From: a virus
Virus record (IMG/VR): IMGVR_UViG_3300008050_007680
Coordinates: 1 to 64,000 of that record
DNA: 64,000 bases
Reading direction: 5' to 3' (one strand)
This document shows positions 24,188-47,605 of this stretch, piece after piece. The position numbers and the translations under genes were made by a program. Under the pieces are notes generated by a model. That model worked only from the letters and a program-made list of their open reading frames with translations. It searched no databases and had not been told where the DNA came from. Numbering within the stretch: the stretch's first letter is position 1; the number at the start of each line of letters is the position of its first letter.

Positions 24188-25294
24188 ATGATTCCTTTAT
24201 TTAAGCCTAATATTCCTAAAAACTTGGGTGTGACACTGCAAAAGGTTTTTGATTCTGGGATGTTAACTGAGGGTGCTTTATCTGATGAATTTGAGGAAAA
24301 GTTTTCCAAATTAATTGATAATCCATATACTGCATTAACAAACAGCTGCACGTCTGCGCTTACATTAGCATATAAATTATGTGATGTACAACAGGGTGAT
24401 GTAGTTATCACAACGCCTATGACATGTATGGCAACAAACGTTCCACTCCATAACCTCGGAGCAAAATTAGCATGGGCGGATGTCAGTAAACAAACTGGCA
24501 ATATTAGCTGCCGGTCCGTTGAGGAATTATTAAAGAAACACAAAGGGAAAGTGAAAGCCGTTGTCTGCGTTCATTGGGCCGGTGAACCAGTTTGCTTGTC
24601 AGGCCTGAAGGAGATTTGTGGGAAAGCGAATGTGCCACTCGTTGCTGACGCAGCGCACGCCCTTTGTGCGAAATACAAAGGGGTTGATATTTCACACTGG
24701 GCGGACTACACATGTTATTCCTTTCAGGCAATAAAGCACTTAACAACAATCGACGGTGGTGCACTAGCCTGTAGAAACAAGCTTGATTTCGAAAAAGTAA
24801 AATTGCTTAGGTGGTTTGGTTTAGACAGAAAATACCCAGGGTCAAAGTGGGAACAAGATATCTCTCTTGCTGGTTATAAGTTTCATATGAATAATGTAAA
24901 TGCAGCAGTAGGTCTTGAGCAACTAAAGAATATAAACATGATTTTGTCGCGCCATGTCAACAATGCTAACCGTTATCGTCGTGAGCTAAAGACAGAATAC
25001 CAGGTTCGCCGCAGCAAAGAATTTGGCACAAGATCAGCAGATTGGTTATTTACTATCCATGTTGAAGACCCTAAAGCTTTTAAAACATTTATGAATGAGC
25101 GGGATATACAAGTAGATCAGGTTCATATGAGGAATGATAAGTACACGGTTTTTAGAAGTCACTGCAAAGGTAATGATAGTTTACCCGGCGTATCAGCATT
25201 TTGTGCACATATGACAAATATACCTGTGGGCGCCCATTTAAGTGATGATGATGTAACAAGGGTCATTGAGGCAGTAAATGCATACTCTCAATGA
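24188..25294 (+). CDS. DegT/DnrJ/EryC1/StrS aminotransferase
   Basis: 368 residues. TNSCTSALTLAY binds the PLP phosphate, VPLVADAAHA has the Asp that pairs with the pyridine N, and SFQAIKHLTTIDGGAL contains the PLP-binding Lys. This family makes 3- or 4-amino sugars from keto sugar nucleotides. It sits between the dehydratase and the acetyltransferase, as in Qui3NAc/Fuc3NAc or similar pathways. Confidence 0.87.
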   Translation: MIPLFKPNIPKNLGVTLQKVFDSGMLTEGALSDEFEEKFSKLIDNPYTALTNSCTSALTLAYKLCDVQQGDVVITTPMTCMATNVPLHNLGAKLAWADVSKQTGNISCRSVEELLKKHKGKVKAVVCVHWAGEPVCLSGLKEICGKANVPLVADAAHALCAKYKGVDISHWADYTCYSFQAIKHLTTIDGGALACRNKLDFEKVKLLRWFGLDRKYPGSKWEQDISLAGYKFHMNNVNAAVGLEQLKNINMILSRHVNNANRYRRELKTEYQVRRSKEFGTRSADWLFTIHVEDPKAFKTFMNERDIQVDQVHMRNDKYTVFRSHCKGNDSLPGVSAFCAHMTNIPVGAHLSDDDVTRVIEAVNAYSQ

Positions 25295-25835
25295 TGGAAT
25301 AAGCCTTCGAGTACTCGAAAAAAAGGACTTAGAGTGGGCCCGTTTACTACATAATGAACCATCGACACTTTGTATGCTTACTAATAACGAGCCAGTAAGT
25401 CAGGTGCAACAACACATGTGGTTCAAAAAACTATGTATATCTCCGACGTCATCTAGATGGGTCATTACATGCAAGGCACCAGCTGGGGACGTTCCAGTGG
25501 GTGTTGTTCGTATTGACAACAAAGACTATAAGAATTCGAGTGTACAAATTGGCCTCGATATCGCCTCGGCTCACCGCCGACAGGGCATTGCGACAAAGGT
25601 ATATAAATATTTGTTGACATTCTTCTTTGATAAGCTTGAAATGAATAGGATTTCATTAAAAGTTCTTGAAACAAATCTTGGAGCAAAACGAATTTACGAA
25701 AAGCTCGGGTTTATCCAAGAAGGTATTGAGCGTCAGGCAATTTATAGGGACGGTAAGTTTATCGACTATATACTGATGTCAGTGCTTAGGGATGAATATG
25801 AAAAAAATAGAAATAGGTATAGCACTATCGCGTAA
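25278..25835 (+). CDS. GNAT acetyltransferase (RimJ/PseH-like)
   Basis: 185 residues. IASAHRRQGIATKVYKYLL is the acetyl-CoA binding loop (R/Q-x-x-G-x-G/A), and VLETNLGAKRIYEKLGF is the C-terminal GNAT signature. With the aminotransferase it probably N-acetylates an amino sugar nucleotide. Overlaps the aminotransferase by 17 bases. Confidence 0.8.
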   Translation: MHTLNDGISLRVLEKKDLEWARLLHNEPSTLCMLTNNEPVSQVQQHMWFKKLCISPTSSRWVITCKAPAGDVPVGVVRIDNKDYKNSSVQIGLDIASAHRRQGIATKVYKYLLTFFFDKLEMNRISLKVLETNLGAKRIYEKLGFIQEGIERQAIYRDGKFIDYILMSVLRDEYEKNRNRYSTIA

Positions 25836-26601
25836 CGGAAATGCATACCTTCGCTTTCTGATAGAAACACTAAAGCGAACAGTAAATGACTTTAATAGAT
25901 TCACTTTTATAATTGGCGTAGATTCTTTTGAAGTCGATGAAAAAGAAACCAAAGACATTTTAAAACAAGCAGGACTCTATAGAGATAATTCTACTTTTAT
26001 ATTAAAAAGCAAGAGTGAATATGGTAGCATGCATCATGGCCTATCACTAGATGAAGTATTCCAGCGAATGACAGAGGATATTTGCATTTTAATGGACTGT
26101 GATGTTGCTTTTCTACAAAATGATTGGGACAATAAAATGTTACAGACACTAGTTGGTGATGTTGTAATTGTAGGCGCCGAGTATGACGGAAAGAAGTACT
26201 CTGAATTCCCCAACGTGATATGTGCAATGTTCAGAAGAGACATTATCAAAAGTTTAAATGTAAGTTTTAAACCTGAGGGTATGGTAACTATTACAGAGAC
26301 TAACAACGCGTGGTACAAGAGAGAAGTCGCCGAGCAAATATTGCTAGATACAGGCTCAGAGCTTCCAAGAAAAATTATACAAGCAGGTTTAGCAGGAAAG
26401 CATATGCATTTGCATAGAGCGAAATCATCTAGCGCAGTTTTCATGAAACAAGATACACGGGGAGAAGAATACCAATTATTCGGTGAACCTGTTTTTACAC
26501 ATATAGGCAGATCATTTACAAGATGCTTTGGTAAAGATTCAAATGCAATTATATGGGAAAAAAATGTGAGGGATTGGTTAAATGCGAATTCTATTCGATA
26601 A
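25798..26601 (+). CDS. GT-A-fold glycosyltransferase-like protein
   Basis: 267 residues. I prefer the ATG at 25798, five bases after AGGGA, over the ATG at 25792. The start IEIGIALSRNG and ICILMDCDVAF (a DxD-type metal site) suggest a GT-A glycosyltransferase. The C-terminal KHMHLHRAKSS may bind the acceptor. Family not identified. Overlaps both neighbours. Confidence 0.6.
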   Translation: MKKIEIGIALSRNGNAYLRFLIETLKRTVNDFNRFTFIIGVDSFEVDEKETKDILKQAGLYRDNSTFILKSKSEYGSMHHGLSLDEVFQRMTEDICILMDCDVAFLQNDWDNKMLQTLVGDVVIVGAEYDGKKYSEFPNVICAMFRRDIIKSLNVSFKPEGMVTITETNNAWYKREVAEQILLDTGSELPRKIIQAGLAGKHMHLHRAKSSSAVFMKQDTRGEEYQLFGEPVFTHIGRSFTRCFGKDSNAIIWEKNVRDWLNANSIR

Positions 26602-27478
26602 CGTAAACTTTTTATCAAGAACTGGACCAAATGCGTTCGGCCATAAGCTAGCAACCCAGCTATCAAAAAATGGGCACATTATAGTAAACGAAGATGAATC
26701 ACCAGATGTTCAACTGTCGTTTATTCAAGCCCTTTCTACTAAATCGCCGATGGTCCAACGTTTGGATGGGATTTGGTTTAACAACACACAAGATTGGAAA
26801 ACACAGAATCTAAAAATAAAAGATACGTATAATAAAGCAAAATCGGTAGTCTTTCAATCTAGTTTTGATAAAAAGTTAGTAGAAACGTTTTTTGGGCCTC
26901 ATGAATCGTCGGAAATTATACGTAATGGTACCAATATTGACTACATCGATAGCATTGATCCAATGTATGCTCCTACGCTACAGTCCGTTGATAAAGTGTG
27001 GTCATGTGCAGCTTCATGGAGGCCGCATAAGCGGCTAAGCGAAAACGTGAGATATTTTAAAGAGCATGCTGGCCATAAAGATTGCTTAATCATTGCCGGC
27101 GCAAACCCAGACTACAAAGTGGTTGATCCAAGAATATTTTATGCTGGTGATTTAGACTATAAGACGTTAGTATCTTTATACAAAGCAACTGATTATTTCT
27201 TGCATCTGGCCTGGTTAGATCATTGTCCAAATTGCGTCGTTGATGCCAGAGCCGCAGGATGCCAGATTATTTGTTCCTCATCTGGTGGTACAAGAGAAAT
27301 TGCGGGCAAGAATTCTGTTGTGATAAACGAAGCGCCATGGGATTTTAAGCCTTGCAATTTATATAACCCGCCTCAAATGGATTTTTCAAGAAAATCACCA
27401 AACTTAGAAGAATCAGAACTTGATATTAGAAATACTGCTGTTAAATACACGAGGGTTTTAGAAAATGCAAAAGCGTAA
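26582..27478 (+). CDS. Glycosyltransferase, GT4-like
   Basis: 298 residues. RTGPNAFGHKLA is the Gly-rich acceptor loop, AASWRPHKRLSEN the start of the second Rossmann domain, and LHLAWLDHCPNCVVDARAAGC with GGTREI forms the donor site (the E-x7-E glutamates are partly replaced). Short for GT4 (usually 350-400), but both half-domains are recognisable. Confidence 0.72.
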   Translation: MRILFDNVNFLSRTGPNAFGHKLATQLSKNGHIIVNEDESPDVQLSFIQALSTKSPMVQRLDGIWFNNTQDWKTQNLKIKDTYNKAKSVVFQSSFDKKLVETFFGPHESSEIIRNGTNIDYIDSIDPMYAPTLQSVDKVWSCAASWRPHKRLSENVRYFKEHAGHKDCLIIAGANPDYKVVDPRIFYAGDLDYKTLVSLYKATDYFLHLAWLDHCPNCVVDARAAGCQIICSSSGGTREIAGKNSVVINEAPWDFKPCNLYNPPQMDFSRKSPNLEESELDIRNTAVKYTRVLENAKA

Positions 27479-28427
27479 AGCACTTATTACAGGCGTTGCT
27501 GGCCAGGATGGTAGTTATTTAGCTGAGCTTTTGCTTGAAAAGGGATATGATGTCTACGGTTTAAAAAGGTTTTCAACGACCAGCTCGTCCGATGTAAATA
27601 TAGCGCATATTCGTGATTTGAATATTATCGAGGGTGACGTTACTGATCGCACGCTACTAGACAAAACGCTAAGATTAATTAAGCCACATGAAGTATACAA
27701 CTTGGCAGCGCAATCTCATGTAGGAAAATCATTCCAGATTCCTGAATATACAGCGAAGGTGACAGGTAGCGCAGTACTTTCGTTACTTGAATCAATAAGA
27801 TTGTCTGGCTTTAACTCGAAGTTCTATCAAGCGTCTACATCTGAGCTATATGGAAATGCTACGTCAAATGATCTTCTAAATGAGAATTCGACATTCGGTC
27901 CAGTATCACCGTATGCCTGTGCAAAGTTATTCGCACATAATATAACAAAAATGTACAGAGAATCATATAATATGTTCGCATGCTGTGGTATATTATTTAA
28001 TCATGAATCACCTCGAAGGGGATCCACATTTGTAACTAGAAAGCTAACATTGGCTGCAGCAGCAGCCGCAAACGATCCCACATTCAGGGTCGGGATGGGA
28101 AACTTAAATTCTGCTCGTGATTGGGGCCATGCAAAAGACTACGTTAGAGGAATGTGGATGATGATGCAACACAGTGAACCTGATGATTACGTCTTGGCTA
28201 CTGGTGAGTCTCATACAATCGATGCTTTTGCTGATATTGCATTTAAAGAAGCAGGAATTAGTAGCTATGGAAAACATATATACGTAGATGAGACATATTA
28301 TCGCCCCACAGACGTACACACACTAAGGGGTGATGCATCAAAAGCATTATCTATTTTAGGGTGGAAGCCTGAGTATACATTTAATGATCTTGTAAAAGAA
28401 ATGGTCAGAGAGGACCTGCGGAGATGA
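27465..28427 (+). CDS. gmd: GDP-mannose 4,6-dehydratase
   Basis: 320 residues of extended SDR: TGVAGQDGSYLAELLL binds NADP, YNLAAQSHVGKSF and ASTSELYG are GMD signatures, YACAK holds the catalytic Tyr and Lys, and ILFNHESPRRG is specific to GMD. It makes GDP-4-keto-6-deoxymannose, a precursor of GDP-fucose, -rhamnose or -perosamine. No fucose synthase is seen in the window. Overlaps both neighbours. Confidence 0.9.
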   Translation: MQKRKALITGVAGQDGSYLAELLLEKGYDVYGLKRFSTTSSSDVNIAHIRDLNIIEGDVTDRTLLDKTLRLIKPHEVYNLAAQSHVGKSFQIPEYTAKVTGSAVLSLLESIRLSGFNSKFYQASTSELYGNATSNDLLNENSTFGPVSPYACAKLFAHNITKMYRESYNMFACCGILFNHESPRRGSTFVTRKLTLAAAAAANDPTFRVGMGNLNSARDWGHAKDYVRGMWMMMQHSEPDDYVLATGESHTIDAFADIAFKEAGISSYGKHIYVDETYYRPTDVHTLRGDASKALSILGWKPEYTFNDLVKEMVREDLRR

Positions 28428-29383
28428 AAGTTTTTATACCGAAGCCAGGAGAGAATTGGGTTTGTGATACGATAATCGGCGAATTCGAGAAAAACACACG
28501 TCATGATATTGTATATGACATTAAAAAAAGTGATATTGTTTTCTTGTATGCTAAGTGGATTGCAAACCACTTTCCTATCATGCAGCTCTGTATGAAGCCC
28601 GTTGTGACGACAGTTCACCATATTGTACCTACTAAAGCTCGGGCAGTAGACTATATAGCGCTAAGCCAGTTCACAAATGTATTTCATGTCTCAAATGAGA
28701 AAACAGGCAGCATGTTGAAAAATTTTGTTCCAAATGTACACATAAAGAAATTGCCATATTGGGTGAACTCAGAAAGGTGGTTTCCTGTTGAACAACCAGC
28801 AAAAATCCCTGTTAACCTTCATGTAGGTGATCGTAAGCTTATAGCCTCATTTCAACGAGATACTGAGGGTGCAAGTATCAATAGCGGTGTGTTTTTGCCT
28901 AAGCTCGAAAAGGGACCGGACATACTTGCAAGAATAGTAAAAGAGTTTACGCCAAAAGAGATGGCAGTGTTTTTAGGCGGTTGGCGTAGAGACTATCTCT
29001 TGAAAGAGCTAGATAAGGATTATATAGTTTCATCGATGAGGATTGACGAAACTTCTATGAATGCAGCATATAACGTAATTAGAAAATATAATGGCTATTA
29101 TCTTGTTACATCTCGTTACGAAGGCGGCCCACAAGCAATTTTAGAGGCAGCAAGGACAAAAACAAAGATTCTATCAACAGACGTTGGTATCGCATCTGAT
29201 ATACTTCACCCAGATTGTATATGTTCTTCTGAGCAAGATTTTGTTGATAAAATCAGTAATGACGCTATCGAACATACAATCGAGTACAACTTTAACAATG
29301 TTAAAAAGTACGAGATGACAAAAGTAATCACCATGTATGATGATTTATTAGATGAGGTTTATTTAAATGCTCGTGTACGTTAA
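28424..29383 (+). CDS. Glycosyltransferase, GT4-like
   Basis: 319 residues. ASFQRDTEG, AVFLGGWRRDYL and TSRYEGGPQAILEAARTK (the E-x7-E donor-binding pattern of GT4) are visible. The N-terminal half, with VTTVHHIVPTKARAVDY, is the acceptor domain. Start overlaps the gmd stop by 4 bases. Confidence 0.75.
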   Translation: MKVFIPKPGENWVCDTIIGEFEKNTRHDIVYDIKKSDIVFLYAKWIANHFPIMQLCMKPVVTTVHHIVPTKARAVDYIALSQFTNVFHVSNEKTGSMLKNFVPNVHIKKLPYWVNSERWFPVEQPAKIPVNLHVGDRKLIASFQRDTEGASINSGVFLPKLEKGPDILARIVKEFTPKEMAVFLGGWRRDYLLKELDKDYIVSSMRIDETSMNAAYNVIRKYNGYYLVTSRYEGGPQAILEAARTKTKILSTDVGIASDILHPDCICSSEQDFVDKISNDAIEHTIEYNFNNVKKYEMTKVITMYDDLLDEVYLNARVR

Positions 29384-30275
29384 TCGCAAGCCCGTTGCAG
29401 GCCCTTGGGGCGGCGGGACGAAAAGTTTAAACTCGATAATACTTGCGTTAATAGATGCAGGACATAATATCACGTTTGACATGTCAAAAAAGTTTGATGT
29501 AGCATTAATCGTCGACCCACGACCAACAAACGATAATAACTATGACATGATACACAACATATCACGTATCTATGACGCAAAGATAGTTCAACGTGTCGGA
29601 GATTTAGGAACGCACTCCAAACCTGAACTCACCGAATTAGTGAAAAAGACAGTTCAGCAATCTGATTGTGTAATTTTTCCCAGTACCTGGGCATGTGAAT
29701 CAGTTCTTGAGAAAATGCAGAAAGCACATATTCCAATGGGGAAAGATTGGTTTGTCATTCAAAATGAGCCGATGAGGCACTTTGACTGCAAGCCAAAAGA
29801 AGATTTACCCGTTGACATTTCATTCGTTACACATCACTGGTCAACGAACGCATTCAAGGGATTCTCTTTTTACAAAGAGCTGGATAAAATTAGCAATTTT
29901 ACGTATGTAGGCAGAGCTCCACAAGATATAAAATATAAAAATCAAATAGGACCAATGGATGGAGAATCTCTTGTTAATGAAGTGAGCAAGCATAACGTAT
30001 ATGTTACTGCCTCACTTCACGAAGCCGGAGCTAACCATGTATTGGAAGCATTAGCAATGGGTTTACCAGTGATTTATCATGAGCAGGGAGGTAGCATACC
30101 CGAGTATTGTACGGGATATGGCACATCATTTGATGGCACTATTGAATCATTTAACACCGCTGTTTTGCTTTTAAGAGAAACCTACAATGACGTAATAAAA
30201 TCCAGGCTTTCGGCACGTAACAGATTTATAGATGATATGGCTTTGTCATATGTTGATATCATAGAAGGGCAGTGA
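29367..30275 (+). CDS. Glycosyltransferase, GT4-like
   Basis: 302 residues. NRKPVAGPWGGGTKSLN is a Gly-rich acceptor loop, FVTHHWSTNAFKGF lies at the domain boundary, and TASLHEAGANHVLEALAMGLP gives the E-x7-E donor site. A near relative in layout to the two preceding GT4 proteins. The first 6 codons overlap the previous gene. Confidence 0.75.
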   Translation: MLVYVNRKPVAGPWGGGTKSLNSIILALIDAGHNITFDMSKKFDVALIVDPRPTNDNNYDMIHNISRIYDAKIVQRVGDLGTHSKPELTELVKKTVQQSDCVIFPSTWACESVLEKMQKAHIPMGKDWFVIQNEPMRHFDCKPKEDLPVDISFVTHHWSTNAFKGFSFYKELDKISNFTYVGRAPQDIKYKNQIGPMDGESLVNEVSKHNVYVTASLHEAGANHVLEALAMGLPVIYHEQGGSIPEYCTGYGTSFDGTIESFNTAVLLLRETYNDVIKSRLSARNRFIDDMALSYVDIIEGQ

Positions 30276-30276
30276 A

Positions 30277-30993
30277 GTGTATAAAGTTAATATATCAATC
30301 GATGATGTTTCGCCTCATCCGCAATCATCTACAAAGGTACTTCATAATTGCTATGATATATTAAGTGTATTCCCTGATGCAAAGTTTACACTGTTCGTGC
30401 CTGTTTCATATTGGAGAACGATCGGGCCTACTGCAACACCACAACCTCTGCAATTGGATCTTTATCCAGAGTTTTGTCAAGAGCTACAAGAATTAGATAA
30501 AAATACATTCGAGGTATGTTATCATGGATTTCATCACGGGATTCCTGGTAAATCAAATAATGACGAGCTGCAAACGATGGGTTATCAAGAAGCTCTTAAA
30601 TGCATCGAATTAATGAGGGGTATGGTTAATAAGTCAGGCCTATCGAGTGTATTTAAAGATGTCCTGAGGCCTCCTGCATGGCGCATGTCACCTAATGTCT
30701 TTGATGCATGTAAAGACACAGGAATAAATACTCTTGCTTTGAGTGCTGATGAGTATGCTAATGTTACATACGGCGATAGAGATAAGACGGACCACTGGAA
30801 AGATAAGGTTATCTATTATACTTGCGCTCCGCCATTTAAACCACTTGAACTTAGTGAAAAAACAGAGATCGTGTTTCATGCTTGCGAATGGGACGCGAAT
30901 CTATTGTCTGATATACTTACTATAGAGTTGATACAGTTTTTAAAAGATCATGAAGGGCAATATAAATTTTCTTTTATTGAAGGGTTGCTATGA
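30277..30993 (+). CDS. Polysaccharide-deacetylase-like (NodB fold) protein
   Basis: 238 residues from a GTG. NISIDDVSPHP has the catalytic Asp pair, EVCYHGFHHGIPG the two metal-binding His, and LRPPAWRMSP the R-P-P-x-W motif. This is the NodB/DUF2334-like layout that removes N-acetyl groups from sugars. With the acetyltransferase and amino-sugar genes it may set the acetylation state of the glycan. Confidence 0.7.
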   Translation: MYKVNISIDDVSPHPQSSTKVLHNCYDILSVFPDAKFTLFVPVSYWRTIGPTATPQPLQLDLYPEFCQELQELDKNTFEVCYHGFHHGIPGKSNNDELQTMGYQEALKCIELMRGMVNKSGLSSVFKDVLRPPAWRMSPNVFDACKDTGINTLALSADEYANVTYGDRDKTDHWKDKVIYYTCAPPFKPLELSEKTEIVFHACEWDANLLSDILTIELIQFLKDHEGQYKFSFIEGLL

Positions 30994-33644: not shown

Positions 33645-33841
33645 GCAATATATTAAAATTCGGAGATTTGTGTACAATTATTAATTATCACTGGCTGGGA
33701 TATGTCATTTACCTATATGACATTAAGATAAGCGCTGGTGACCCAATAAAGGAGTATAATTGTACGCGTGTATATTCATTAAGGCGCAAGCGCGTAAATA
33801 CACAACGTGATATTGTCCTAGGGCGCGTCACATGTTTATAA
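33641..33841 (+). CDS. Small SH3-like protein, family A copy 5 (divergent)
   Basis: 66 residues, ATGA overlap with copy 4 and 10-base overlap with the next gene. KFGDLCTIINYHWLGYVIYLYD fits the opening of family A and also resembles the small protein at the window start; the rest is diverged. Confidence 0.55.
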   Translation: MSNILKFGDLCTIINYHWLGYVIYLYDIKISAGDPIKEYNCTRVYSLRRKRVNTQRDIVLGRVTCL

Positions 33842-34905
33842 AAAAGAATGCTGTTTTAATTAGTGACTTCTTTTGGAGTACAGTTCCGTATGATGGCCTG
33901 CGCCTTTATGACAAGCTAAGTAAAGTAACATCGTGTGATTTATTGATGTTCAAGGATGATATTAGACTAAATAAAAAGTTTACTGGAAATGAAAAGTTCC
34001 ATTTTGATATTGCGGAGTTCACTAGTAGAAGGCCTATTCTATTAAAAGATTGGTCAGATTTTGTAAAAAAGTCTGCAAATTACGAATCGATTTTGTGTTC
34101 TTCTCATATAGCACCGAAGATAAGGTTTCCGAAAGGTCTCCGTGATGCTGTGCAATGTAACTTATGTGCCTGGGATATTGGCGGTGCAGATATTCTAACA
34201 AACGCTACACACTTTGCTACGCATTTTTTTGTAAAGGGTAACATATGGAAAAATTGGCTTGTTAGAATGGGTTATAATGAAAATAATATTTTCGTCACTG
34301 GTTCTCCCCACTATGATCCATACTTAGGATGTAACACAAAAACAGAGAAGGGTTCTATCTTAGTCGTTCCGTCAAATCCAAAAAGCCATCAAGAGCAGTT
34401 TAAGCAAAATATGCATGTGCTCACGCAGTTGAGTCATGAGAAAAATATAAAAGTATACGTTAAAACATATCCCCATGACTATCTTTTTTATGAAAGTGAG
34501 AGAAAGTATACTGGCGTTTATAGAAGACCTATCGGTAATAAACCGCAATATGAAATGCTGAAGAGTATGTTTCCTACATTTTCGATAGTCGACAGCCAAA
34601 ATCACTTTGAAGTGATGTCAAAATGTGAGAAAATTTTCAATATGTCTGGAAGCCATATTTCTTGGGAAACTTATTTTACGGGTGTTCCTTGTTACGCTAT
34701 GAATATGGTGGGCAAGTCTTACCACAAAGGAGTAAGTTATCTTCCAGAATATGTGGTATATCCTGATGATCTTGTTAATATACACATAGATTCTATCGAC
34801 AAAATGCTCGGTCCATGTCCACGAATTGATTATAGTGGCATGTCAGACTATATTTTGAAAGAAAATGCAGTAGATAATATTGTTACGTCTTTTTTAAACA
34901 TCTAA
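33832..34905 (+). CDS. GT-B-like protein of the ulosonate locus, hypothetical
   Basis: 357 residues with no membrane segment. Two alpha/beta halves are suggested: FFVKGNIWKNWL and VTGSPHYDP near the centre, and FNMSGSHISWETYFTGVPCYAMN near the end, where GT-B enzymes bind the sugar nucleotide. It resembles glycerophosphotransferase/polysialyltransferase-type GT-B proteins only in outline. It lies just before the NeuB-like gene. Confidence 0.5.
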   Translation: MFIKKNAVLISDFFWSTVPYDGLRLYDKLSKVTSCDLLMFKDDIRLNKKFTGNEKFHFDIAEFTSRRPILLKDWSDFVKKSANYESILCSSHIAPKIRFPKGLRDAVQCNLCAWDIGGADILTNATHFATHFFVKGNIWKNWLVRMGYNENNIFVTGSPHYDPYLGCNTKTEKGSILVVPSNPKSHQEQFKQNMHVLTQLSHEKNIKVYVKTYPHDYLFYESERKYTGVYRRPIGNKPQYEMLKSMFPTFSIVDSQNHFEVMSKCEKIFNMSGSHISWETYFTGVPCYAMNMVGKSYHKGVSYLPEYVVYPDDLVNIHIDSIDKMLGPCPRIDYSGMSDYILKENAVDNIVTSFLNI

Positions 34906-34928: not shown

Positions 34929-35642
34929 ATGTCAATTAAGATTATAGCAGAAATAGGGATTAATTGGAATGGAAATTTTGACCTTATTCCCGAACTCATT
35001 CGCCAAGCTTCACTATCAGGTGCAGATTTTGCAAAGTTTCAACTATACTCATCGCAAAGCTTATTTGGTGACAGTTCAAGGGCTCATAATGAATTAACTT
35101 TTGGACAACTAGAAAAAATAAAGAAGTTTTGTGAGCACTATGATATTAAATTGATGATATCTGCATTTGATAAGATCCGATTAGGGTGGTGCGGTTTACT
35201 TGATATCGATGCGTATAAGGTCGCCAGCAGGACAGTCAAGCATGACCCTGCTCTTGCATCATTAGTAACGAGTTTAGCAAAAAAATTGGAAAAAGATGTC
35301 TATGTTTCTCTAGGGATGCATGATAATGAAGCTTTACCTTTTAAATTATCTGGATATACAAAGTTCTTAAACTGCATCTCTAAATACCCTACGACGTTTA
35401 TTGATCAAGCACCCCTTAGGGATTACGTCGGCAATGTTATCGGCTTAAGTGATCACTCTTTTGGTTTGGGTGCGCCGCTTTATCATATTGCACAAGGTGC
35501 TGATGTTATAGAGAAGCACTTTACACTAAATAAAACAATGAGTGGTCGTGATCATCTAGGTTCTATGACACCAGATGAATTAAAAGGTTTAAGAACTTAT
35601 GGCAACGAAATACAGAGAGCAAGAAATGCAATCAAAAGATAA
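34929..35642 (+). CDS. neuB: NeuB-type ulosonic (sialic) acid synthase, short form
   Basis: 237 residues. IIAEIGINWNGN opens the TIM barrel, then DFAKFQLY, YKVASR, GLSDHSFG and VIEKHFTLNK, with GRDHLGSMTPDEL at the end: the full NeuB series of PEP- and metal-binding motifs. The C-terminal antifreeze-like (SAF) domain of normal NeuB (about 345 residues) is missing. It would condense PEP with a hexosamine derivative. It overlaps the cytidylyltransferase. Confidence 0.88.
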   Translation: MSIKIIAEIGINWNGNFDLIPELIRQASLSGADFAKFQLYSSQSLFGDSSRAHNELTFGQLEKIKKFCEHYDIKLMISAFDKIRLGWCGLLDIDAYKVASRTVKHDPALASLVTSLAKKLEKDVYVSLGMHDNEALPFKLSGYTKFLNCISKYPTTFIDQAPLRDYVGNVIGLSDHSFGLGAPLYHIAQGADVIEKHFTLNKTMSGRDHLGSMTPDELKGLRTYGNEIQRARNAIKR

Positions 35643-36357
35643 AAAAGTACTATGTGTCGTATTAGCTAGGGGCGGTTCTAAAGGAATCCCTTACAAAAAT
35701 ATATACCCTATCGCGGGAAAATATTTGATCCAATGGACGCTAGAGGCCGCACTAGACTCCGGCATTTTTTCTGACATTGTAGTCAGTACAGACGATGAAA
35801 ATATTGCATTAGCTGTTAAGACATCGACACAAGAGGTTAAAATCATCGACAGACCAAAAGAATTGGCTGGCGATAATGTTTGGTCACGAGATGCATTAAA
35901 GCATGCTGTTCTTGAGGCAGAAAAAACATTGCTCACTAATTGCGATACATACGACTACGTGTTCGAGCTGCCATGCGTCGCACCACTAAGAAATAAAAAG
36001 CATATTAATGAAGCTGCGGAACTTCTATTCTCTTCTCCTGACATTACTGGCGTGACATCAGTAACAATGATGCAAGATAAGCATCCACGCAGAATGAAAA
36101 GAATACTGGATGATGGAACATTTACGGATTTTTGCAAAGAATTTCCTGAAGGTGAGGGTTCTAGAAGGCAAGACTTAGAGCCATGTTACATTAGAAATGG
36201 TGCTATTTATTCTATGACAAGAGATACGATCATCAATGAATTTTCTAGGCATGGCAAAAGGTGTTTAGCGTACATTATGCCAGAAATGGAATCAGTAAAC
36301 ATCGATACTAAACTTGACATGAAGATTGCGGAACTACTATTAAATGAAAAATTATAA
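35626..36357 (+). CDS. neuA: NeuA-like CMP-ulosonate cytidylyltransferase
   Basis: 243 residues; the ATG at 35599 would add nine residues, but 35626 gives the usual spacing before the nucleotide-binding loop. VVLARGGSKGIPYKNI binds CTP; VVSTDDENIA, LPCVAPLR and MESVNIDTKLDMKIAE complete the acylneuraminate cytidylyltransferase pattern. It would activate the NeuB product as a CMP-sugar. Overlaps NeuB and the following dehydrogenase. Confidence 0.87.
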   Translation: MQSKDKKVLCVVLARGGSKGIPYKNIYPIAGKYLIQWTLEAALDSGIFSDIVVSTDDENIALAVKTSTQEVKIIDRPKELAGDNVWSRDALKHAVLEAEKTLLTNCDTYDYVFELPCVAPLRNKKHINEAAELLFSSPDITGVTSVTMMQDKHPRRMKRILDDGTFTDFCKEFPEGEGSRRQDLEPCYIRNGAIYSMTRDTIINEFSRHGKRCLAYIMPEMESVNIDTKLDMKIAELLLNEKL

Positions 36358-37261
36358 AAGAATTAAGCTAGATTGCCCAATTGATTGGTTGGAAGAAGAT
36401 TTAAATTTGTATCTAAACTCTCATGGGTTTATGATAGATAACTCTAGCCCAAACTATCTTGTCGTTAATCCAGGGACTGATAGATTTTTGGGCGAAGATT
36501 ACTTTAGCGATTATCCCACGCTAGTCCATGTAGGAACACCTTCGACGGGCAAAAACCACGTCGACACTGATTTGTTAGCAAAAAAGCGGGTAAAATTTAG
36601 TAGCTTACTTGATAATAGGGATGAGCTCACAAAAATAACAGCATCTTCAGAGTTTACATGGTTACATATTATGAGCGCTTATAGAATGTTTCTTGCAGCT
36701 TTAGCTGGAACTGCTTCTTGGCGCGAGACTGCAAATGAAAGCAAACTAAGAAGCAGACAGCTATCAGGTGCGACGATTGGGATTATAGGCTTTGGTCGTA
36801 TCGGGCAAAATATCGCAAGATATGCATTAGCTTTTGGTATGCGCGTAAAGTTTTATGATCCGCATATATACAGACAACGTCACAATGCCACAAAAGAGTA
36901 CTCAATTGCCGACTTGGCGACATGTGATATTATTTCTATCAACTGTTCATTAAATGAGTCTTCAACGAATCTCATTTCTCGTGGAACATTCGAAAACTTT
37001 AAAGATGGGCTGGTCATAGTGAATACTTCACGTGGTGAAGTTATTGATGAAGATTACATATGCGATTTAGTCGAGGCTAAAAAGATAATTTACTCATGTG
37101 ATGTTGTTAGAAACGAACAGAATGCTGCATTGCTAGGCAAAACAAGAATTTTCAAACTTGCTAATGATCCCTCTATGGAACTTCATATTACACCTCATGT
37201 CGCAGGTGCCACCGTTGATAGCCAAAAAATAGCGCTCGAGGGCATATTAAGCCTAATGTAA
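36344..37261 (+). CDS. D-isomer-specific 2-hydroxyacid dehydrogenase-like protein
   Basis: 305 residues. IGIIGFGRIGQNIARYAL is the NAD-binding GxGxxG loop, FYDPHI follows, VNTSRGEVIDE holds the conserved Arg, and HITPHVAGAT the catalytic His. It oxidises or reduces a 2-hydroxyacid; in this locus it may act on a keto-acid sugar or its precursor. Confidence 0.85.
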   Translation: MKNYKRIKLDCPIDWLEEDLNLYLNSHGFMIDNSSPNYLVVNPGTDRFLGEDYFSDYPTLVHVGTPSTGKNHVDTDLLAKKRVKFSSLLDNRDELTKITASSEFTWLHIMSAYRMFLAALAGTASWRETANESKLRSRQLSGATIGIIGFGRIGQNIARYALAFGMRVKFYDPHIYRQRHNATKEYSIADLATCDIISINCSLNESSTNLISRGTFENFKDGLVIVNTSRGEVIDEDYICDLVEAKKIIYSCDVVRNEQNAALLGKTRIFKLANDPSMELHITPHVAGATVDSQKIALEGILSLM

Positions 37262-37911
37262 TGAATGCTTTTAATATAACAATCGCGATTTGTAATTTTA
37301 AGCAAAAAAAATGGATCCACAGATGCCTCCGCAGTTTGGCAGATCAAACAATTGGAAGCGGCAAATTCGAAATAATAGTAGTAAATGATGATCCTGATGA
37401 TGATTTAACTGCAATCATAAAATCATGGTCTGATATTATGAACATTAGGCTTTTCAATAATGATGTAAATATAGGGCTCCCAGCATCATTAAATGTAGCT
37501 TTAGAAAATTCTCGTGGTAGATATTTTTTTCGAGTTGATGCTGATGATTATATTTCTAAACATACACTATATGTCCTTTCATTATTTTTAGATATGAATA
37601 GAGACTATCAAGCTGTTGCATGTGATTATAACGAAGTAGATAATTTGGGGAAAACTTTGGCTCGTAAGCATTCTGAGGATGATCCTATAGCCTGTGGCAT
37701 AATGTTTACGTATGAATCGTTATGTGATGTTGGGTTTTATGACAAGACATACAAGATGAGAGAAGGTCATGAGTTATTAAAAAGATATGTAAAAAGGCAT
37801 AACATCTATTATATGCCGATGCCTTTTTACAGATACAGAAAACATAATGATAATAGGACAAATGATATAGCAAACGTCGCTATATACGATGAGAGATTAC
37901 AAAGGGCATGA
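37261..37911 (+). CDS. Glycosyltransferase family 2
   Basis: 216 residues. NITIAICNFKQKKWI opens the GT2 fold, VVNDDPDDD the nucleotide turn, FRVDADDYIS the DxD site. Overlaps both neighbours by 1-4 bases. Confidence 0.82.
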   Translation: MNAFNITIAICNFKQKKWIHRCLRSLADQTIGSGKFEIIVVNDDPDDDLTAIIKSWSDIMNIRLFNNDVNIGLPASLNVALENSRGRYFFRVDADDYISKHTLYVLSLFLDMNRDYQAVACDYNEVDNLGKTLARKHSEDDPIACGIMFTYESLCDVGFYDKTYKMREGHELLKRYVKRHNIYYMPMPFYRYRKHNDNRTNDIANVAIYDERLQRA

Positions 37912-38597
37912 TTGACGAAAAAACTAAAGTAGTAATTATTGGCGGTGCACCAACTGTAAAAGACGTCAAGCTTGGTTCACTTGTTGACGCTTTTGATTTA
38001 GTTGTCCGATGTAACAATTACACCACATCAGGATTTGAGCAATACGTTGGAAGCAAAACTGACATTTGGGCAATTAATACATCACGCAGCACAAAACGCC
38101 GTGATTGTCGGGTGTATAAAGAGGTATGGCACAAAAATCAGCCAGCACATAAACTTGCTGCAAAAATGCACCAGCCCAAATCAGTAATCAGGATGCTTGA
38201 TCCAGATCAATGGGACGAAAGATTTGCAACTATGAATGAACCCAACCCATCTATAGGTTTTAGAGCCATTGCTCATGCGCTGCACTACTATAAAGATGTT
38301 ACTGCTTTTGGTTTTACATTTTTTACAGATACAGATGATGGATTTTATAAACATTATTATGAAGATGTAGCGCTGAAAGAATATTACAAGAAATTTTTTA
38401 TAAAGGGTAATTGGGCAAAGGACGAAGAAGAGCGTGAGATATTCAAGCAAGCATTAGCTGACAATAAGAATGTTGTCAGAGGTGATCATCATAAGGGTGC
38501 ACTTGAAAAAGAGCATGCTAATAAGCTATATAATGAAGGCACATTAAAATTGTTATACCCTTTCGAAATAACAGACGGCAAGAGTGATGTCATATAA
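37908..38597 (+). CDS. GT29-like sialyltransferase
   Basis: 229 residues. By eye all three sialylmotifs of family GT29 are present. Motif L (8-57) has VVIIGGAPTVKD, DLVVRCNNYTTSGFEQYVG and SKTDIW. Motif S (112-136) has NPSIGFRAIAHALHYY and VTAFGF. Motif VS is HYYED (149-153), with the catalytic-base-type His. GT29 enzymes transfer sialic acid from CMP-Neu5Ac. With the NeuB and NeuA genes just upstream, it probably transfers the phage-encoded CMP-ulosonate. No N-terminal membrane anchor is present. Confidence 0.72.
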   Translation: MIDEKTKVVIIGGAPTVKDVKLGSLVDAFDLVVRCNNYTTSGFEQYVGSKTDIWAINTSRSTKRRDCRVYKEVWHKNQPAHKLAAKMHQPKSVIRMLDPDQWDERFATMNEPNPSIGFRAIAHALHYYKDVTAFGFTFFTDTDDGFYKHYYEDVALKEYYKKFFIKGNWAKDEEEREIFKQALADNKNVVRGDHHKGALEKEHANKLYNEGTLKLLYPFEITDGKSDVI

Positions 38598-39375
38598 ATT
38601 ATTACAGAATGTGACAAAGGACGATCTGAGGCTGGATCCGTATCCCCATGTTGTTATTAAAAATGCATTGCCATCCGCAGAATGTGACAAGCTAGTTGAC
38701 GAGTTTCCCGCAGATCACACTATCGCAAAGAGCGCAAACTTGGGTAGCAATCAGCGTTTCAATTATTCATCATTTGATATATTGAATGATTCCCAGATTA
38801 ATGAACACTGGAAGAAGTACGTTCAAGCAAACACGGGCAAAGATTTTTTTGAAGACTTTGTTGACATTTTTGGTGATGCATTAAAAGTGGAATACCCAGC
38901 ATTCTACAAGAAGTACATTTTAAACAATGCATTCAAAACAGGCATTTGGGGCGCTAATACACAGCATGATGGTGGGATCAACGTAGCTGCAGATATTAAC
39001 AGTCCCGTATTAAAAACCTCTTCAGTACAAAGAGGCCCTCATTTAGATCAACCTAATAAATTGATTTTCGGGTTGCTATATCTAAGGCCTCCCGAAGATA
39101 CCACACCTGGTGGCGATTTAGAAATTTATAAGCTAAAAAATAAGAAGAGTTTTAAATTTGAGAGAAATGGCAGGCACATAGATGCAAAATATATAGAGCT
39201 TGTTGATACTGTTAAATACGAAAAAAACACTCTTGTCTTAGGTCTAAATACATTACGGAGTATTCATGGCTTAACTCCTAGAGAGCCTACAAAGGTATCA
39301 AGAAGGTTTTCGAATTTCTTTATTGAGCTAAAGAAGCCACTATTTGATCCTAAGGAGACGTCATGGGACGATTAG
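38587..39375 (+). CDS. 2-oxoglutarate/Fe(II) oxygenase
   Basis: 262 residues from the ATG at 38587 (a GTG at 38584 is in frame). GPHLDQPNKLIFGLLYL gives the H-x-D iron ligands, GGDLEIY follows, then LRSIHGLTP the distal His and SRRFSNFF the 2OG-binding Arg. It hydroxylates an unknown small molecule or sugar. Overlaps the aldolase fusion by 13 bases, so the two are probably coupled. Confidence 0.78.
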   Translation: MSYKLLQNVTKDDLRLDPYPHVVIKNALPSAECDKLVDEFPADHTIAKSANLGSNQRFNYSSFDILNDSQINEHWKKYVQANTGKDFFEDFVDIFGDALKVEYPAFYKKYILNNAFKTGIWGANTQHDGGINVAADINSPVLKTSSVQRGPHLDQPNKLIFGLLYLRPPEDTTPGGDLEIYKLKNKKSFKFERNGRHIDAKYIELVDTVKYEKNTLVLGLNTLRSIHGLTPREPTKVSRRFSNFFIELKKPLFDPKETSWDD

Positions 39376-41117
39376 CACAACTCGGATTAAAAATTTTAGA
39401 TTGCACATTGAGAGATGGTGGATACTACACTGGTTGGAATTTCGATAGAGATATAACAGAGCGGCTAGTAACGTCACTTGACGAAGCAAAAGTAGATATT
39501 ATAGAACTTGGATATAAGTCAAGATTAGAAGGCGGTATCTTTAGAAGGTGCGAAGAAAAAGATTTAGCTTATCTACCGAAACTTGAACACTCAAAGTATT
39601 GCTTCATGATTGATTTAAAAGATTTCTCTTCTTATCATGAAATAACACAAATTGATGCTCTTGTACCCGACGAAAAATGCTCAATATTCAGTTGGTGTAG
39701 GGTAGCCACAAGATATAAGGACATCGAGACGGCTGCTAAAGTTTGCTTTTTACTAAAGAGAAAAGGGTATAACGTTGCATTAAATGTGATGTGTATATCA
39801 CAGTTGACTAGTAAGGAGTTACGTGTTGTTCAAGACGCATTTTCATGTCGAAGTTATGCTGACGTACTATATCTAGCTGACTCATATGGGTCATTAAGCA
39901 CAGCCGGTTTAACAGAGATTATGAATGATTTTGGTAAGTATAGTCCCATGGGTTTGCACTTACATGATAATTTAGGCACATCATTGGCAACAGCGATACA
40001 GTCTTTGAGTACACCTAATATCAGATATATAGATGGCACGATTGCAGGGATGGGGCGCGGCGTAGGAAATTTACGTTTAGAGCAATTCCTACCACTAGTA
40101 AAAAGTTTAAGACCTGATACTGACATAGCATATTTGGAACATACGATTCATGATTTTGAGTCGCTAAAACAAAAATACGACTGGGGATGGAGCCAAGCAT
40201 ACCAACTGTCAGGCTTAAATGACATCCACCCATTTTATTGTATGAAGTTAAAGCAACGGGGTTTTGACGATTTTACGTCATGCAAAATTTTAAGCAGGGT
40301 TGATGAAAGAAAAGTATCATTCGATCCAGCATATTTGCAAGAATTAATTGACTGCAATAATAAGAAGGAAGTTGCTGTTATCATTCCTGCAAGATTTGAG
40401 TCAACAAGATTTCCAGGAAAGCCACTCGTTAAGATTAACGGCACGCGAATGATAATCAGGGTTGCTGAGCTTGTTTCTAAGGCAGTGGGCAAAGAAAATG
40501 TTTATATCGCTACAGACTCAGAAGAAATTAGGGAACATGTCGAAGAAAGAAAATTTAATGTGATTTTGACGAGTAAGAATTGTATGACAGGAACGGATAG
40601 GGTTGCAGAAGCTGCGAAGAAAATAAACGCTAGCACTATCATAAGTGTACAAGGCGATGAACCGCTGTTAGAACCTGGGCTGATAACTAGGGTGTTGGCT
40701 GCTAAGACACAATTTCCTGGACATGTAATTAATTGCGCATCTAAACTAGATCCAAACAATCAAACGCCTTCAGACCCCAAGATGCCCAAGATGGTTTTAA
40801 ATAACGAAAATGAATTGCTCTATGCATCACGTTCTCCAATCCCAGGAAACAAAAAGGGTATAATAAATGATAACGTTGGTACTTTGCTAACGATGAAACA
40901 AGTGTGTGTATACGCTTTCACTAATATACAACTTGAGCGGTATGCAAGTATTATGTCAAAAACACGCCTTGAAGCACAGGAAGATATAGAAATATTACGT
41001 TTTCTTGAATTAGGCATACCAGTTAAAGTTGTTATTGAAGAAAATGTTTTTACGCATGCTGTTGATTATCCAGAAGACATTCCAATTGTCGAAGGTATTT
41101 TAAATGCTAGATTATGA
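39363..41117 (+). CDS. Fusion: DRE-TIM aldolase plus KdsB-like cytidylyltransferase
   Basis: 584 residues. Residues about 8-330 are a DRE-TIM aldolase/HMG-CoA-lyase-type barrel, with DCTLRDGGYY (13-22), IIELGYKS, HLHDN (199-203, metal-binding His pair) and GMGRGVGNLRLE. Residues about 336-584 are KdsB/NeuA-like, with IIPARFESTRFPGKPL, YIATDSEEI, TGTDRVAEA and VQGDEPLLE, as in CMP-Kdo synthetase. One chain could form a 2-keto acid by aldol chemistry and activate it with CMP. The junction is in frame with no stop. Confidence 0.85.
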   Translation: MGRLAQLGLKILDCTLRDGGYYTGWNFDRDITERLVTSLDEAKVDIIELGYKSRLEGGIFRRCEEKDLAYLPKLEHSKYCFMIDLKDFSSYHEITQIDALVPDEKCSIFSWCRVATRYKDIETAAKVCFLLKRKGYNVALNVMCISQLTSKELRVVQDAFSCRSYADVLYLADSYGSLSTAGLTEIMNDFGKYSPMGLHLHDNLGTSLATAIQSLSTPNIRYIDGTIAGMGRGVGNLRLEQFLPLVKSLRPDTDIAYLEHTIHDFESLKQKYDWGWSQAYQLSGLNDIHPFYCMKLKQRGFDDFTSCKILSRVDERKVSFDPAYLQELIDCNNKKEVAVIIPARFESTRFPGKPLVKINGTRMIIRVAELVSKAVGKENVYIATDSEEIREHVEERKFNVILTSKNCMTGTDRVAEAAKKINASTIISVQGDEPLLEPGLITRVLAAKTQFPGHVINCASKLDPNNQTPSDPKMPKMVLNNENELLYASRSPIPGNKKGIINDNVGTLLTMKQVCVYAFTNIQLERYASIMSKTRLEAQEDIEILRFLELGIPVKVVIEENVFTHAVDYPEDIPIVEGILNARL

Positions 41118-41736
41118 TTTGTACATTTTTGATTTTGATGGTACAATTTTTGACACAAATAAGATCAAAAATGACGCTTTTGAGTGTGTTATAAAAGAAG
41201 TATGTCCACAAAGATACTTGCGCCGCTACATGAAGAAGTTAAATACATATAATGAAATGACTCGACGTATAAAATTTGATGTATTAGCTGATGTCATTGA
41301 ACCAGAATGTAGATATACTTTTGTAGAAAAATGCATTAAAAAATATGAAAGTATAATAAGCGAAAGTTTTATGAATGCAGAATTTATACCTGGCGCAGCC
41401 AATTTTTTGAAGAAAATAAAAGGAAAGCGGAAATTCATTGTGTCTGGAGGCAAAGAGTCTGAGATAGCTGCATTACTCAAGAAGCATAGTCTGCTTGGCG
41501 AGTTTGAAGCAATTTATGACGGCGAAAAATCGAAGTTTGATCATTTTTTTATGATTAAACACAAGTCTCCGGGCGCTAAAAGGTTATCAATCGGCGATTC
41601 TAAACTAGATTATTCATCATCTATTGATCACGTTAATAATTTTGTTTTTGTTCAATGTGCCTCTCAAGAAGAAAATACGTCATGGTTTAGAGATAATAAC
41701 GCAATTTTGATAAATGACTTTAGGGAACTGATATGA
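41104..41736 (+). CDS. HAD-superfamily phosphatase-like protein
   Basis: 210 residues. FDFDGTIFDTN (catalytic DxD), FIVSGGKESEIAALLKKHSLL (motif II Ser), then SPGAKRLSIGDSKLDYSSS (motif III Lys and motif IV acidic pair). It is a Cof/PGP-like HAD and could dephosphorylate the ulosonate-phosphate before activation, as KdsC does for Kdo-8-P. Overlaps the fusion gene by 14 bases. Confidence 0.78.
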   Translation: MLDYDLYIFDFDGTIFDTNKIKNDAFECVIKEVCPQRYLRRYMKKLNTYNEMTRRIKFDVLADVIEPECRYTFVEKCIKKYESIISESFMNAEFIPGAANFLKKIKGKRKFIVSGGKESEIAALLKKHSLLGEFEAIYDGEKSKFDHFFMIKHKSPGAKRLSIGDSKLDYSSSIDHVNNFVFVQCASQEENTSWFRDNNAILINDFRELI

Positions 41737-45167: not shown

Positions 45168-46433
45168 ATGAACACTAGAAAAAAGAAAAAGGTTTTAGTG
45201 CTGTCGGACCACCCGTTATCTACCTCGGGCGTCGGCGTGCAATCTCGCTACCTGATCAATGGTCTTTTAGAAACTGGCGAATATTCATTTAGGTGTTTCG
45301 GCGCTGCTGTCAAACATTCAAATTATGACGTAGTAAAGGTAAGCGATGATTTTATTATCAAACCGATCGACGGCTTTGGTAATAGGGATATGCTTAGATT
45401 AGCTCTAGCGACTGAGAAGCCTGATGTATTATTCTTATTTACAGATCCTAGATTCTTTATTTGGGTCTGGGAGATGGAAGAAGAAATTCATCAAATTTGC
45501 CCAATAGCTTATTGGCATGTTTGGGATAACGGCCCATGGCCAGCGTATAATAAGGTACTGTATGAGTCTACCGACTTAGTAAATTGCCATTCACATTTGA
45601 CATATAATATGGTAAAAGAGCATTTCCCAAAAAAGACAAACTTTATACCACATGCTCTTCCGAAAGAGTTATTCAACGTATTACCCGCTGGCGTAATCAG
45701 GGAAAACAAGATTAACCTGTTGGGAAAGAAAAATGCTGATGCATTTACTGTATTATGGGTAAACAGGAACGCGAAGAGGAAGCGGCCAAATGATGTTTTA
45801 GTCTCATGGAAGCTTTTTCTTGATAAACTAGAGCTAAAGCATGGTCACAGGAATGCAACAATGGTGATGCATACCGACCCACTGGATGACCAAGGCTCAA
45901 ATTTGCTAAAGACGTCAGAGATGCTTGATATAAATGAAAGTGTGTTTTTTTCTAAAGAGAGACTATCTTTCGAGCAAATGAATATATTACATAATATATC
46001 TGACTGTTGTCTTAATATTTCATCTGCTGAAGGTTTTGGGCTATCTACATTGGAATCTATGCAATGTGGTAAGCCCATTATTGCTGTAAAAACAGGCGGT
46101 CTAACTAGGCAGGTTGTTGATTATCGAGATGATACTGAGAATGGTATTGCACTTGATGTAACTCAACGTTCTTTGGTCGGATCACAGATGGTTCCGTACA
46201 TTTACGAAGATTATTGCACAAATGAAGCTGTTTCTGACGCATTGCTAGAAATGTACGAAAAGGGCCCTGATGAGCGAGAACGCCTGGGCAAGAAAGCAAG
46301 AAAGTATGTACACTCAGAGTTTGATTTGAAGACGACGGTTTCTGACTGGCATAAAACACTTAGCGCAACAATCGATAAATGGGAAAATAACAGGGAAGAA
46401 ATTTACTCTCCATGGGAGCATAAGGTTTTATGA
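45168..46433 (+). CDS. Glycosyltransferase family 4
   Basis: 421 residues. LSDHPLSTSGVGVQSRYLI is the acceptor-domain Gly loop, WVNRNAKRKRPNDVL the domain boundary, and NISSAEGFGLSTLESMQCGKP the E-x7-E donor site. A TATAAT sits 9 bases before the ATG and no Shine-Dalgarno is visible. Pairs with the next GT4 gene by a 4-base overlap. Confidence 0.88.
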   Translation: MNTRKKKKVLVLSDHPLSTSGVGVQSRYLINGLLETGEYSFRCFGAAVKHSNYDVVKVSDDFIIKPIDGFGNRDMLRLALATEKPDVLFLFTDPRFFIWVWEMEEEIHQICPIAYWHVWDNGPWPAYNKVLYESTDLVNCHSHLTYNMVKEHFPKKTNFIPHALPKELFNVLPAGVIRENKINLLGKKNADAFTVLWVNRNAKRKRPNDVLVSWKLFLDKLELKHGHRNATMVMHTDPLDDQGSNLLKTSEMLDINESVFFSKERLSFEQMNILHNISDCCLNISSAEGFGLSTLESMQCGKPIIAVKTGGLTRQVVDYRDDTENGIALDVTQRSLVGSQMVPYIYEDYCTNEAVSDALLEMYEKGPDERERLGKKARKYVHSEFDLKTTVSDWHKTLSATIDKWENNREEIYSPWEHKVL

Positions 46434-47605
46434 AAAAAGTTATTCTAAGAGCACCAGTATTAAGCCAAAGTGGGTATGGCGTTCATTCTAGACAAATTGC
46501 TAGATGGCTTCTTGGTAGAGATGATGTAGAATTGTTTGTTGAACCTGTACAGTGGGGCGCGACACCATGGTATCTAGACAGTGACTTAAAAGATGGTCTC
46601 ATTGGTAAGTTGATGAAGAAAGCAAGCCCTGCAGAAAATGAGACGTATGATATGTCTGTGCAGGTACAACTTCCGAATGAGTGGAATTACAAGCTGGCGC
46701 GTGTTAATGTAGGCGTAACGGCTGCCGTCGAAACTGATGTTTGCAATCCAGCTTGGATAGACAGTGTTAATATGATGGATCACGTTATCGTACCATCAAG
46801 CTTTACGAAAGACGTTCTTGTAAAAACGTCGCAATCAACTGGCAAAGAAATCACAACACCCATACACGTAATTCCAGAGTCATTTATTGACAGCATTTTT
46901 GATGAAGACGCTAGCATTGACTTAGAACTAGATACAGATTTCAATTTTTTGTTGGTTGGTCAAACGACCGGTCAAAACGCTGATAACGATAGAAAAAGTA
47001 TATTTCATACGATCAAGTTGTTCTGCGAAGAATTTAAGGGAAACAAATCTGTCGGGCTTGTGTTAAAAACGAATAATGGGCGAGATACAAAAATTGATAG
47101 ACAGATTACGACGAACTTATTAAAAAGCGTACTACAGCAAGTAAGAACCGGTGAGTATCCTAAGGTACACTTGGTTCATGGGACATTAAATGATAAAGAG
47201 ATTGCAGGCCTGTACAGACACCCTAAAATGCATGCATTTTTGAGTATGACACGAGGGGAAGGTTTCGGTTTACCATTACTGGAGGCTGCAGCATCGGGTT
47301 TAACTGTCATCGCGACGAATTGGTCAGGCCACCTTGACTTTATGAATTTGGGTAAATTTATAAAGTTAGACTTCGAATTAAAAGAGATTCATCCATCAAG
47401 GGTAGATGGTAGGATTTTTGTAAATGGATCAAAATGGGCTGAAGTTAATCAGAAATCTGCTAAGCGCAAATTGAGAAAATTTAAAGAGAAGCCTGATGTA
47501 CCTTTTAAATGGGCAGAAGATTTGGCGGAAGATATCAAAGCCAAGTTCTCTTTCAGCGCTATCTCTAATTTATACGATGCATTTTTTGAAGAGAATATAC
47601 AATGA
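46430..47605 (+). CDS. Glycosyltransferase family 4
   Basis: 391 residues. LSQSGYGVHSRQIARWLL is the acceptor loop, LLVGQTTGQNADNDRKS starts the second domain, and SMTRGEGFGLPLLEAAASGL gives the E-x7-E donor site. It and the protein at 45168 share a similar opening (S-G-V/Y-G-V), so they may be distant duplicates. They are separated from the main glycan locus by about 3 kb of unrelated genes. Confidence 0.88.
   Translation: MKKVILRAPVLSQSGYGVHSRQIARWLLGRDDVELFVEPVQWGATPWYLDSDLKDGLIGKLMKKASPAENETYDMSVQVQLPNEWNYKLARVNVGVTAAVETDVCNPAWIDSVNMMDHVIVPSSFTKDVLVKTSQSTGKEITTPIHVIPESFIDSIFDEDASIDLELDTDFNFLLVGQTTGQNADNDRKSIFHTIKLFCEEFKGNKSVGLVLKTNNGRDTKIDRQITTNLLKSVLQQVRTGEYPKVHLVHGTLNDKEIAGLYRHPKMHAFLSMTRGEGFGLPLLEAAASGLTVIATNWSGHLDFMNLGKFIKLDFELKEIHPSRVDGRIFVNGSKWAEVNQKSAKRKLRKFKEKPDVPFKWAEDLAEDIKAKFSFSAISNLYDAFFEENIQ

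Follow-up and report, generated by a model that had tools for sequence, protein, structure and literature searches.

Sialyltransferases of glycosyltransferase family 29 (GT29), a family best known in animals, have a common fold with the sialylmotifs L, S, III and VS and a pair of catalytic histidines, as seen in ST3Gal1 (2wnb), ST8Sia3 (5bo9) and ST6GalNAc2 (6apj). Catalysis in human ST3Gal1 uses H299, the motif III histidine, as acid and H316, the VS histidine within H-x4-E, as base; replacement of H299, Y300 or H316 by alanine inactivates the enzyme, and W301F, E302Q and E321Q keep 25–80% of the activity (PMC6884586). Prokaryotic, cellular GT29s sharing these sialylmotifs were described from proteobacteria by Petit et al. 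(2018, PMC5811610), where viruses are unmentioned, GT29 has been reported for coccolithoviruses, and sialyltransferases of herpes-, pox- and giant viruses are found in a viral structure library together with one named Caudovirales GT29. Phage GT29 as such is already in databases, and the statement in the initial annotation of the DNA studied here, that GT29 is uncommon in prokaryotes and viruses, needs tempering accordingly. Phage-encoded nonulosonate enzymes are likewise known, namely EpaA and EpaB of an Acinetobacter prophage, which epimerise host pseudaminic acid without synthesis or transfer (PMC12053666). The locus described here lies in the first 64,000 nucleotides (hereafter the window) of the viral record IMGVR_UViG_3300008050_007680, which has 76,952 bases in all, and it combines a NeuB-type synthase, a NeuA/PseF-type synthetase and a GT29 protein, for which no report as a phage cassette was found in the open-access literature. 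All three open reading frames (ORFs) are present where the initial annotation had placed them:

34929–35642, + strand: NeuB-type ulosonate synthase, 237 amino acids, TIM barrel only (PF03102, 118.7 bits; PDB 6ncs, 8h2c, 2wqp)
35599–36357, + strand: NeuA/PseF-type cytidine monophosphate (CMP)-nonulosonate synthetase, 252 amino acids, overlapping neuB (PF02348, 65.4 bits)
37908–38597, + strand: GT29 sialyltransferase-family protein, 229 amino acids, no transmembrane segment (PF00777, 67.3 bits; fold; hydropathy)

We read these genes as a phage-borne CMP-nonulosonate module in which NeuB makes, the NeuA/PseF-type enzyme activates and GT29 attaches the sugar, with a probability of about 0.78. Judged by its family and by the barrel residues that it keeps, NeuB would convert phosphoenolpyruvate and a hexosamine-type sugar into a sialic-acid-like keto acid, which the NeuA/PseF-type enzyme would turn into a CMP-sugar. 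The soluble GT29, in which family and residues point to His149 for the acid and to His195 for the base, would transfer the sugar to a glycan presumably built by neighbouring phage glycosyltransferases in the cytoplasm of the infected cell. Judged from sequence, the module is real and recurrent, and with its predicted function it is probably functional.

The membership of the 37908 protein in GT29 is confirmed, with profile, PDB-sequence and fold searches in agreement. Its PF00777 match (E 1.9e-18, cut-off 23 bits in the Pfam profile search) is far beyond chance. None of 14 control cellular genomes matched this profile, and the window's own record did. Its sequence relatives in the PDB are ST3Gal1, ST6Gal1, ST6GalNAc2 and ST8Sia3, and a profile built from 17 relatives, both viral and bacterial, matched ST3Gal1 at E 2e-31 and the GT42 enzyme CstII at about 4e-7. 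The first 30 PDB fold matches of a moderate AlphaFold2 model were all GT29 (E 5e-6 to 6e-4, TM-score about 0.55), so that both checks proposed in the initial annotation, the profile search and the structure prediction, placed the protein inside the family. GT42 (CstI/CstII) and Maf/MptE-like transferases are of a related fold class with CMP-nonulosonate chemistry; membership in GT42 was rejected on the weaker sequence match and the uniformly GT29 fold matches, and the profile search gave no Maf/MptE-like match. The fold, the four motifs and the histidine pair of the animal enzymes are all common to the window GT29, which differs from them in its size, its long spacer between motifs III and VS, the donor pathway encoded alongside and its occurrence in a phage. 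It has no hydrophobic segment that could serve as an N-terminal Golgi type II anchor. Moreover, the disulphide between motifs L and S of eukaryotic GT29s is absent, the only cysteines being C35 and C67, neither at those positions, and the protein is therefore not filed in the ST3Gal, ST6Gal, ST6GalNAc or ST8Sia subfamily.

The window GT29 carries all four sialylmotifs, arranged as follows:

37926–38066, + strand: sialylmotif L, residues 7–53, with invariant D27, D30, R34, N36, G48 and T51
38244–38318, + strand: sialylmotif S region, residues 113–137, PSIGF...FGF (alignment)
38352–38363, + strand: sialylmotif III, HYYE, residues 149–152, with His149 the putative catalytic acid (alignment; PMC6884586)
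38364–38486, + strand: insertion, a 45-residue spacer between motifs III and VS (alignment)
38490–38507, + strand: sialylmotif VS, H195-KGAL-E200, with His195 the putative catalytic base (alignment)

The initial annotation had noticed motifs L, S and VS and had counted HYYE among them; HYYE fits the consensus H-Y-Y/F/W-E/D of motif III and is not VS, which is H195-KGAL-E200, an H-x4-E arrangement invariant over the 17 aligned relatives. Similarly, of its proposed His149/Glu152 pair, His149 does align with the ST3Gal1 acid, and Glu152 aligns with the glutamate whose glutamine mutant stays active; the likely base is His195, which had been overlooked. An early alignment of seven sequences had suggested that the VS histidine was replaced by asparagine, as in a dead enzyme, a reading dropped when the 17 relatives put VS at H195/E200 behind the insertion. 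It is very unlikely that the protein is a catalytically dead, lectin-like remnant, an idea prompted by its diverged donor-site residues and by the long insertion ahead of VS (45 residues, against 9–16 in nearly all relatives), as both catalytic histidines, the motif III tyrosine, Asn36 of motif L and Ser115/Gly117 of motif S are intact. Both histidine positions are also conserved among its viral relatives, and the window GT29 looks catalytically complete by prediction.

The two donor genes bear out the short NeuB synthase and the NeuA-type cytidylyltransferase of the initial annotation. Residues E8, K36, K97, S100 and Y153 of the window NeuB align with E25, K53, K129, S132 and Y186 of Neisseria meningitidis NeuB, and in the alignment its motifs SDHS, EKHFT and GRDH also fall on the active site of that enzyme (SDH and the KHF/RHF histidine motifs), with serine at the position of N184. 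The equivalog for the canonical synthase of N-acetylneuraminic acid (Neu5Ac), NeuB_NnaB, is not reached (125.8 versus 399.65 bits). Among the 146 NeuB ORFs gathered, 109 are 230–299 amino acids long, and PDB 6ncs (290 amino acids) is another short NeuB; by these lengths a short NeuB is usual among phage sequences and not a sign of decay. Two phage NeuB ORFs of about 500 amino acids with a large extra domain were also seen next to GT29 (L011, 11348–12868; L026, 3732–5198). The window NeuA has the LARGGSKG motif and the CTP_transf_3 profile; its PDB matches are the CMP-Neu5Ac synthetases 6ifd and 1eyr, one such synthetase being the best match, and its best NCBIfam model is PseF, at 120 bits under a cut-off of 205.7. 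On these matches it is intermediate between PseF-like and CMP-Neu5Ac synthetases. With the two databases ranking it differently, NeuB equivocal and the upstream pathway incomplete, the predicted sugar need not be Neu5Ac.

The partnership of the three genes recurs in viral records. IMG/VR scans with the single GT29 or NeuB protein returned no close relatives, and a hand-made DNA pattern for GT29 motif L, validated on the window and on locus L004 of the huge phage LR756508.1 before use, retrieved 23 other IMG/VR contigs and one Pelagibacteraceae genome, with all those tested matching PF00777; exact-motif scans of this kind miss relatives. Among the 23 IMG/VR records, NeuB occurs in 11, and 15 have a CMP-sugar synthetase; many of the 23 are fragments, several are near-duplicates and about 15 are distinct. 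A NeuB-only pattern gave at least 119 new viral loci, and among those listed 10/119 had a GT29-profile match, 8/119 over the Pfam cut-off, with the complete set of motifs III and VS only in L037 and L040; given the lower bound on NeuB loci and the exact-motif scans, these background linkage rates are rough. Across 50,697 phage records, phage NeuB matched only LR756508.1 and AG-345-L05 and GT29 matched only LR756508.1 and DLP6, making LR756508.1 the sole record with both. In every viral locus with both GT29 and NeuB the two genes share a strand, and their ends often overlap; the orders include GT29-NeuB-NeuA, GT29-NeuA-NeuB, NeuA-NeuB-GT29, NeuB-NeuA-GT29 and NeuB-GT29-NeuA, and such shuffled order with retained partnership is as functional linkage predicts. 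This reciprocal linkage supports the earlier suggestion of a phage that produces its own CMP-activated nonulosonate and attaches it. If so, tailed phages would carry a make-activate-attach route for a sialic-acid-like sugar. The GT29 reservoir known outside animals is widened, with a bearing on published views of the origin of the family, and the three-gene cassette is a directly testable one for soluble, disulphide-free enzymes of the sialyltransferase type.

Among the described phages, LR756508.1 has several GT29 ORFs around a NeuB without the SAF (antifreeze) domain (L004, 5950–10771) and, like the window, a distantly related baseplate wedge, but its cluster is different and its NeuA-type gene lies about 14 kb off; this unannotated record holds seven PF00777 match stretches overall. 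The single-cell cyanophage AG-345-L05 carries a long glycan cluster (L007, 852–15905) with a SAF-less phage NeuB, a DegT gene and an SpsF-type CMP-transferase-like gene and, unlike the window, no GT29 was detected in the 20.7-kb stretch examined. The cultured Stenotrophomonas phage DLP6 has a GT29-like gene near glycosyltransferase genes, annotated as hypothetical and with an altered motif III (L005, 4938–5729).

Several observations weigh against the module as read here. Like most of the phage NeuBs compared, the window NeuB is without the C-terminal SAF domain; in the meningococcal NeuB, Arg314 of this domain is essential (PMC6795526). No clear NeuC or PseB/PseG pair that could supply its substrate was found among the window genes tested. 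By the alignment, the donor-site residues Asn147 and Ser148 of ST3Gal1 are glycine and alanine in the window GT29, the model of which has a pLDDT of 69 and is poor at residues 60–89. Most relatives are metagenomic fragments, many of them without a detectable phage hallmark.

The site of transfer is suggested by what surrounds the cassette. No hydrophobic segment strong enough for a transmembrane helix was found in 27 ORFs around the cluster, and a Wzx-type flippase (PF01943) and a membrane initiating transferase (PF02397) were found in 0/24 records, compared with 13/14 and 9/14 of the control cellular genomes, respectively. These absences make the cytoplasm the probable site of attachment, as for FlmG of Caulobacter, a nonulosonate-dependent flagellin transferase acting there (PMC7591256). 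As acceptor, a glycan on a virion protein has about even chances, and a host precursor of lipopolysaccharide (LPS) type, modified before export, is a weaker candidate. Soluble transferases can extend the LPS core in the cytoplasm ahead of host export. The cassette may modify host LPS or capsule for receptor masking or superinfection exclusion and leave virions unmodified, and Acinetobacter prophage enzymes that alter host nonulosonates are documented (PMC12053666); this explanation, which we hold doubtful though by no means negligible, is weakened by the cluster having no flippase, membrane initiating enzyme or transmembrane protein. Somewhat less doubtful, and still tentative, is the wider proposal that some tailed phages make, activate and transfer their own nonulosonic acid in the host cytoplasm, capping glycans on virion proteins, in which case phage virions would be decorated with a sialic-acid-like sugar.

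The cassette lies within a larger glycan cluster. neuB, neuA, a dehydrogenase gene, a GT2 gene and the GT29 gene form one same-strand operon of overlapping ORFs. The three cassette genes, called adjacent in the initial annotation, are not strictly so, with the dehydrogenase (36344–37261) and GT2 (37261–37911) genes separating NeuA from GT29. The neighbouring features are the following:

19431–30993, + strand: upstream glycan genes, namely GT2s, GT-B proteins, dTDP-glucose dehydratase-like, PseC-like DegT, PseH-like GNAT, GMD and methyltransferase
33832–34905, + strand: GT-B-fold-like protein with weak similarity to UDP-N-acetylglucosamine 2-epimerase (PF02350 under cut-off; PDB 4neq, E 0.004)
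36344–37261, + strand: D-2-hydroxyacid dehydrogenase-like, overlapping neuA (PF02826, E 4e-34)
37261–37911, + strand: GT2 glycosyltransferase (PF00535, E 3e-20)
38584–39375, + strand: 2-oxoglutarate-Fe(II) oxygenase-like, weak, overlapping the GT29 gene (PF13640, 19.3 bits, under cut-off)
39363–41117, + strand: DRE-TIM aldolase fused to a KdsB-type CMP-ulosonate synthetase (PDB 3dxi, 135 bits; KdsB 3pol, 108 bits)
41104–41736, + strand: HAD phosphatase (PF13419)
45168–47605, + strand: two GT4-like glycosyltransferases

Phage genes (helicase, PhoH, RNA ligase, polynucleotide kinase-like and baseplate wedge) stand on both sides of the cluster, with replication and repair genes upstream and PhoH immediately before it. 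The downstream baseplate wedge has its best relative in LR756508.1, followed by Microcystis and Flavobacterium phages, in which no annotated cluster of this kind was found beside the baseplate genes, and the cluster therefore looks like an accessory region of the phage. The absence of the cluster at the corresponding place in these distant relatives would also fit host LPS-island DNA misassembled into, or recently acquired by, a viral contig and carried as functionless passengers, and in a global ocean survey LPS islands count as potential hypervariable regions of the host, with such contigs dropped from its conservative catalogue (PMC11360552). Such an origin is highly improbable, as phage genes flank the cluster, its guanine-cytosine content matches the rest, the ORFs are open and tightly overlapping with conserved catalytic residues, and the same linkage occurs in the 484-kb huge-phage record. 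The filtering in that survey could hide phage cassettes of this type; the phage surface chemistry pointed to here lies in 'LPS island' genes, which the filters of at least one large survey would remove. As a phage marker the PF03237 terminase was uninformative, matching 4/30 records with the window's own not among them, and a PHROGs search did not recognise most putative structural proteins.

The aldolase-KdsB fusion and the HAD phosphatase next to it may give this phage another ulosonate route, of an unusual kind. It is unlikely that GT29 uses this route in place of NeuB and NeuA and transfers a Kdo-like or other CMP-activated keto acid: the KdsB domain is strong and 0.8 kb downstream, and for plant GT29-like proteins the sugar transferred has been suggested to be Kdo or a keto-deoxy sugar acid related to it (PMC5811610), but the recurrent partners in other viral cassettes are NeuB and a NeuA-type synthetase, and a seed search of those cassettes gave short KdsB-domain-like matches only, with no full-length aldolase fusion. 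Among the candidates for sugar supply to the NeuB–NeuA–GT29 module, the 33832 gene was rejected as NeuC on its weak matches and on V-Q-C-N-L-C in place of the epimerase V-E-A-G-L-R. A full pseudaminic pathway was likewise rejected, the PseC-like and PseH-like genes being far upstream and all under their equivalog cut-offs, with no PseG among the genes tested. The dTDP-glucose 4,6-dehydratase-like, PseC-like DegT aminotransferase and PseH-like GNAT genes are consecutive at 23213–25835 of the window, as in an amino-sugar route. A diverged GroEL-like chaperonin (phrog_5725) was also observed at 11851–13233 of the window.

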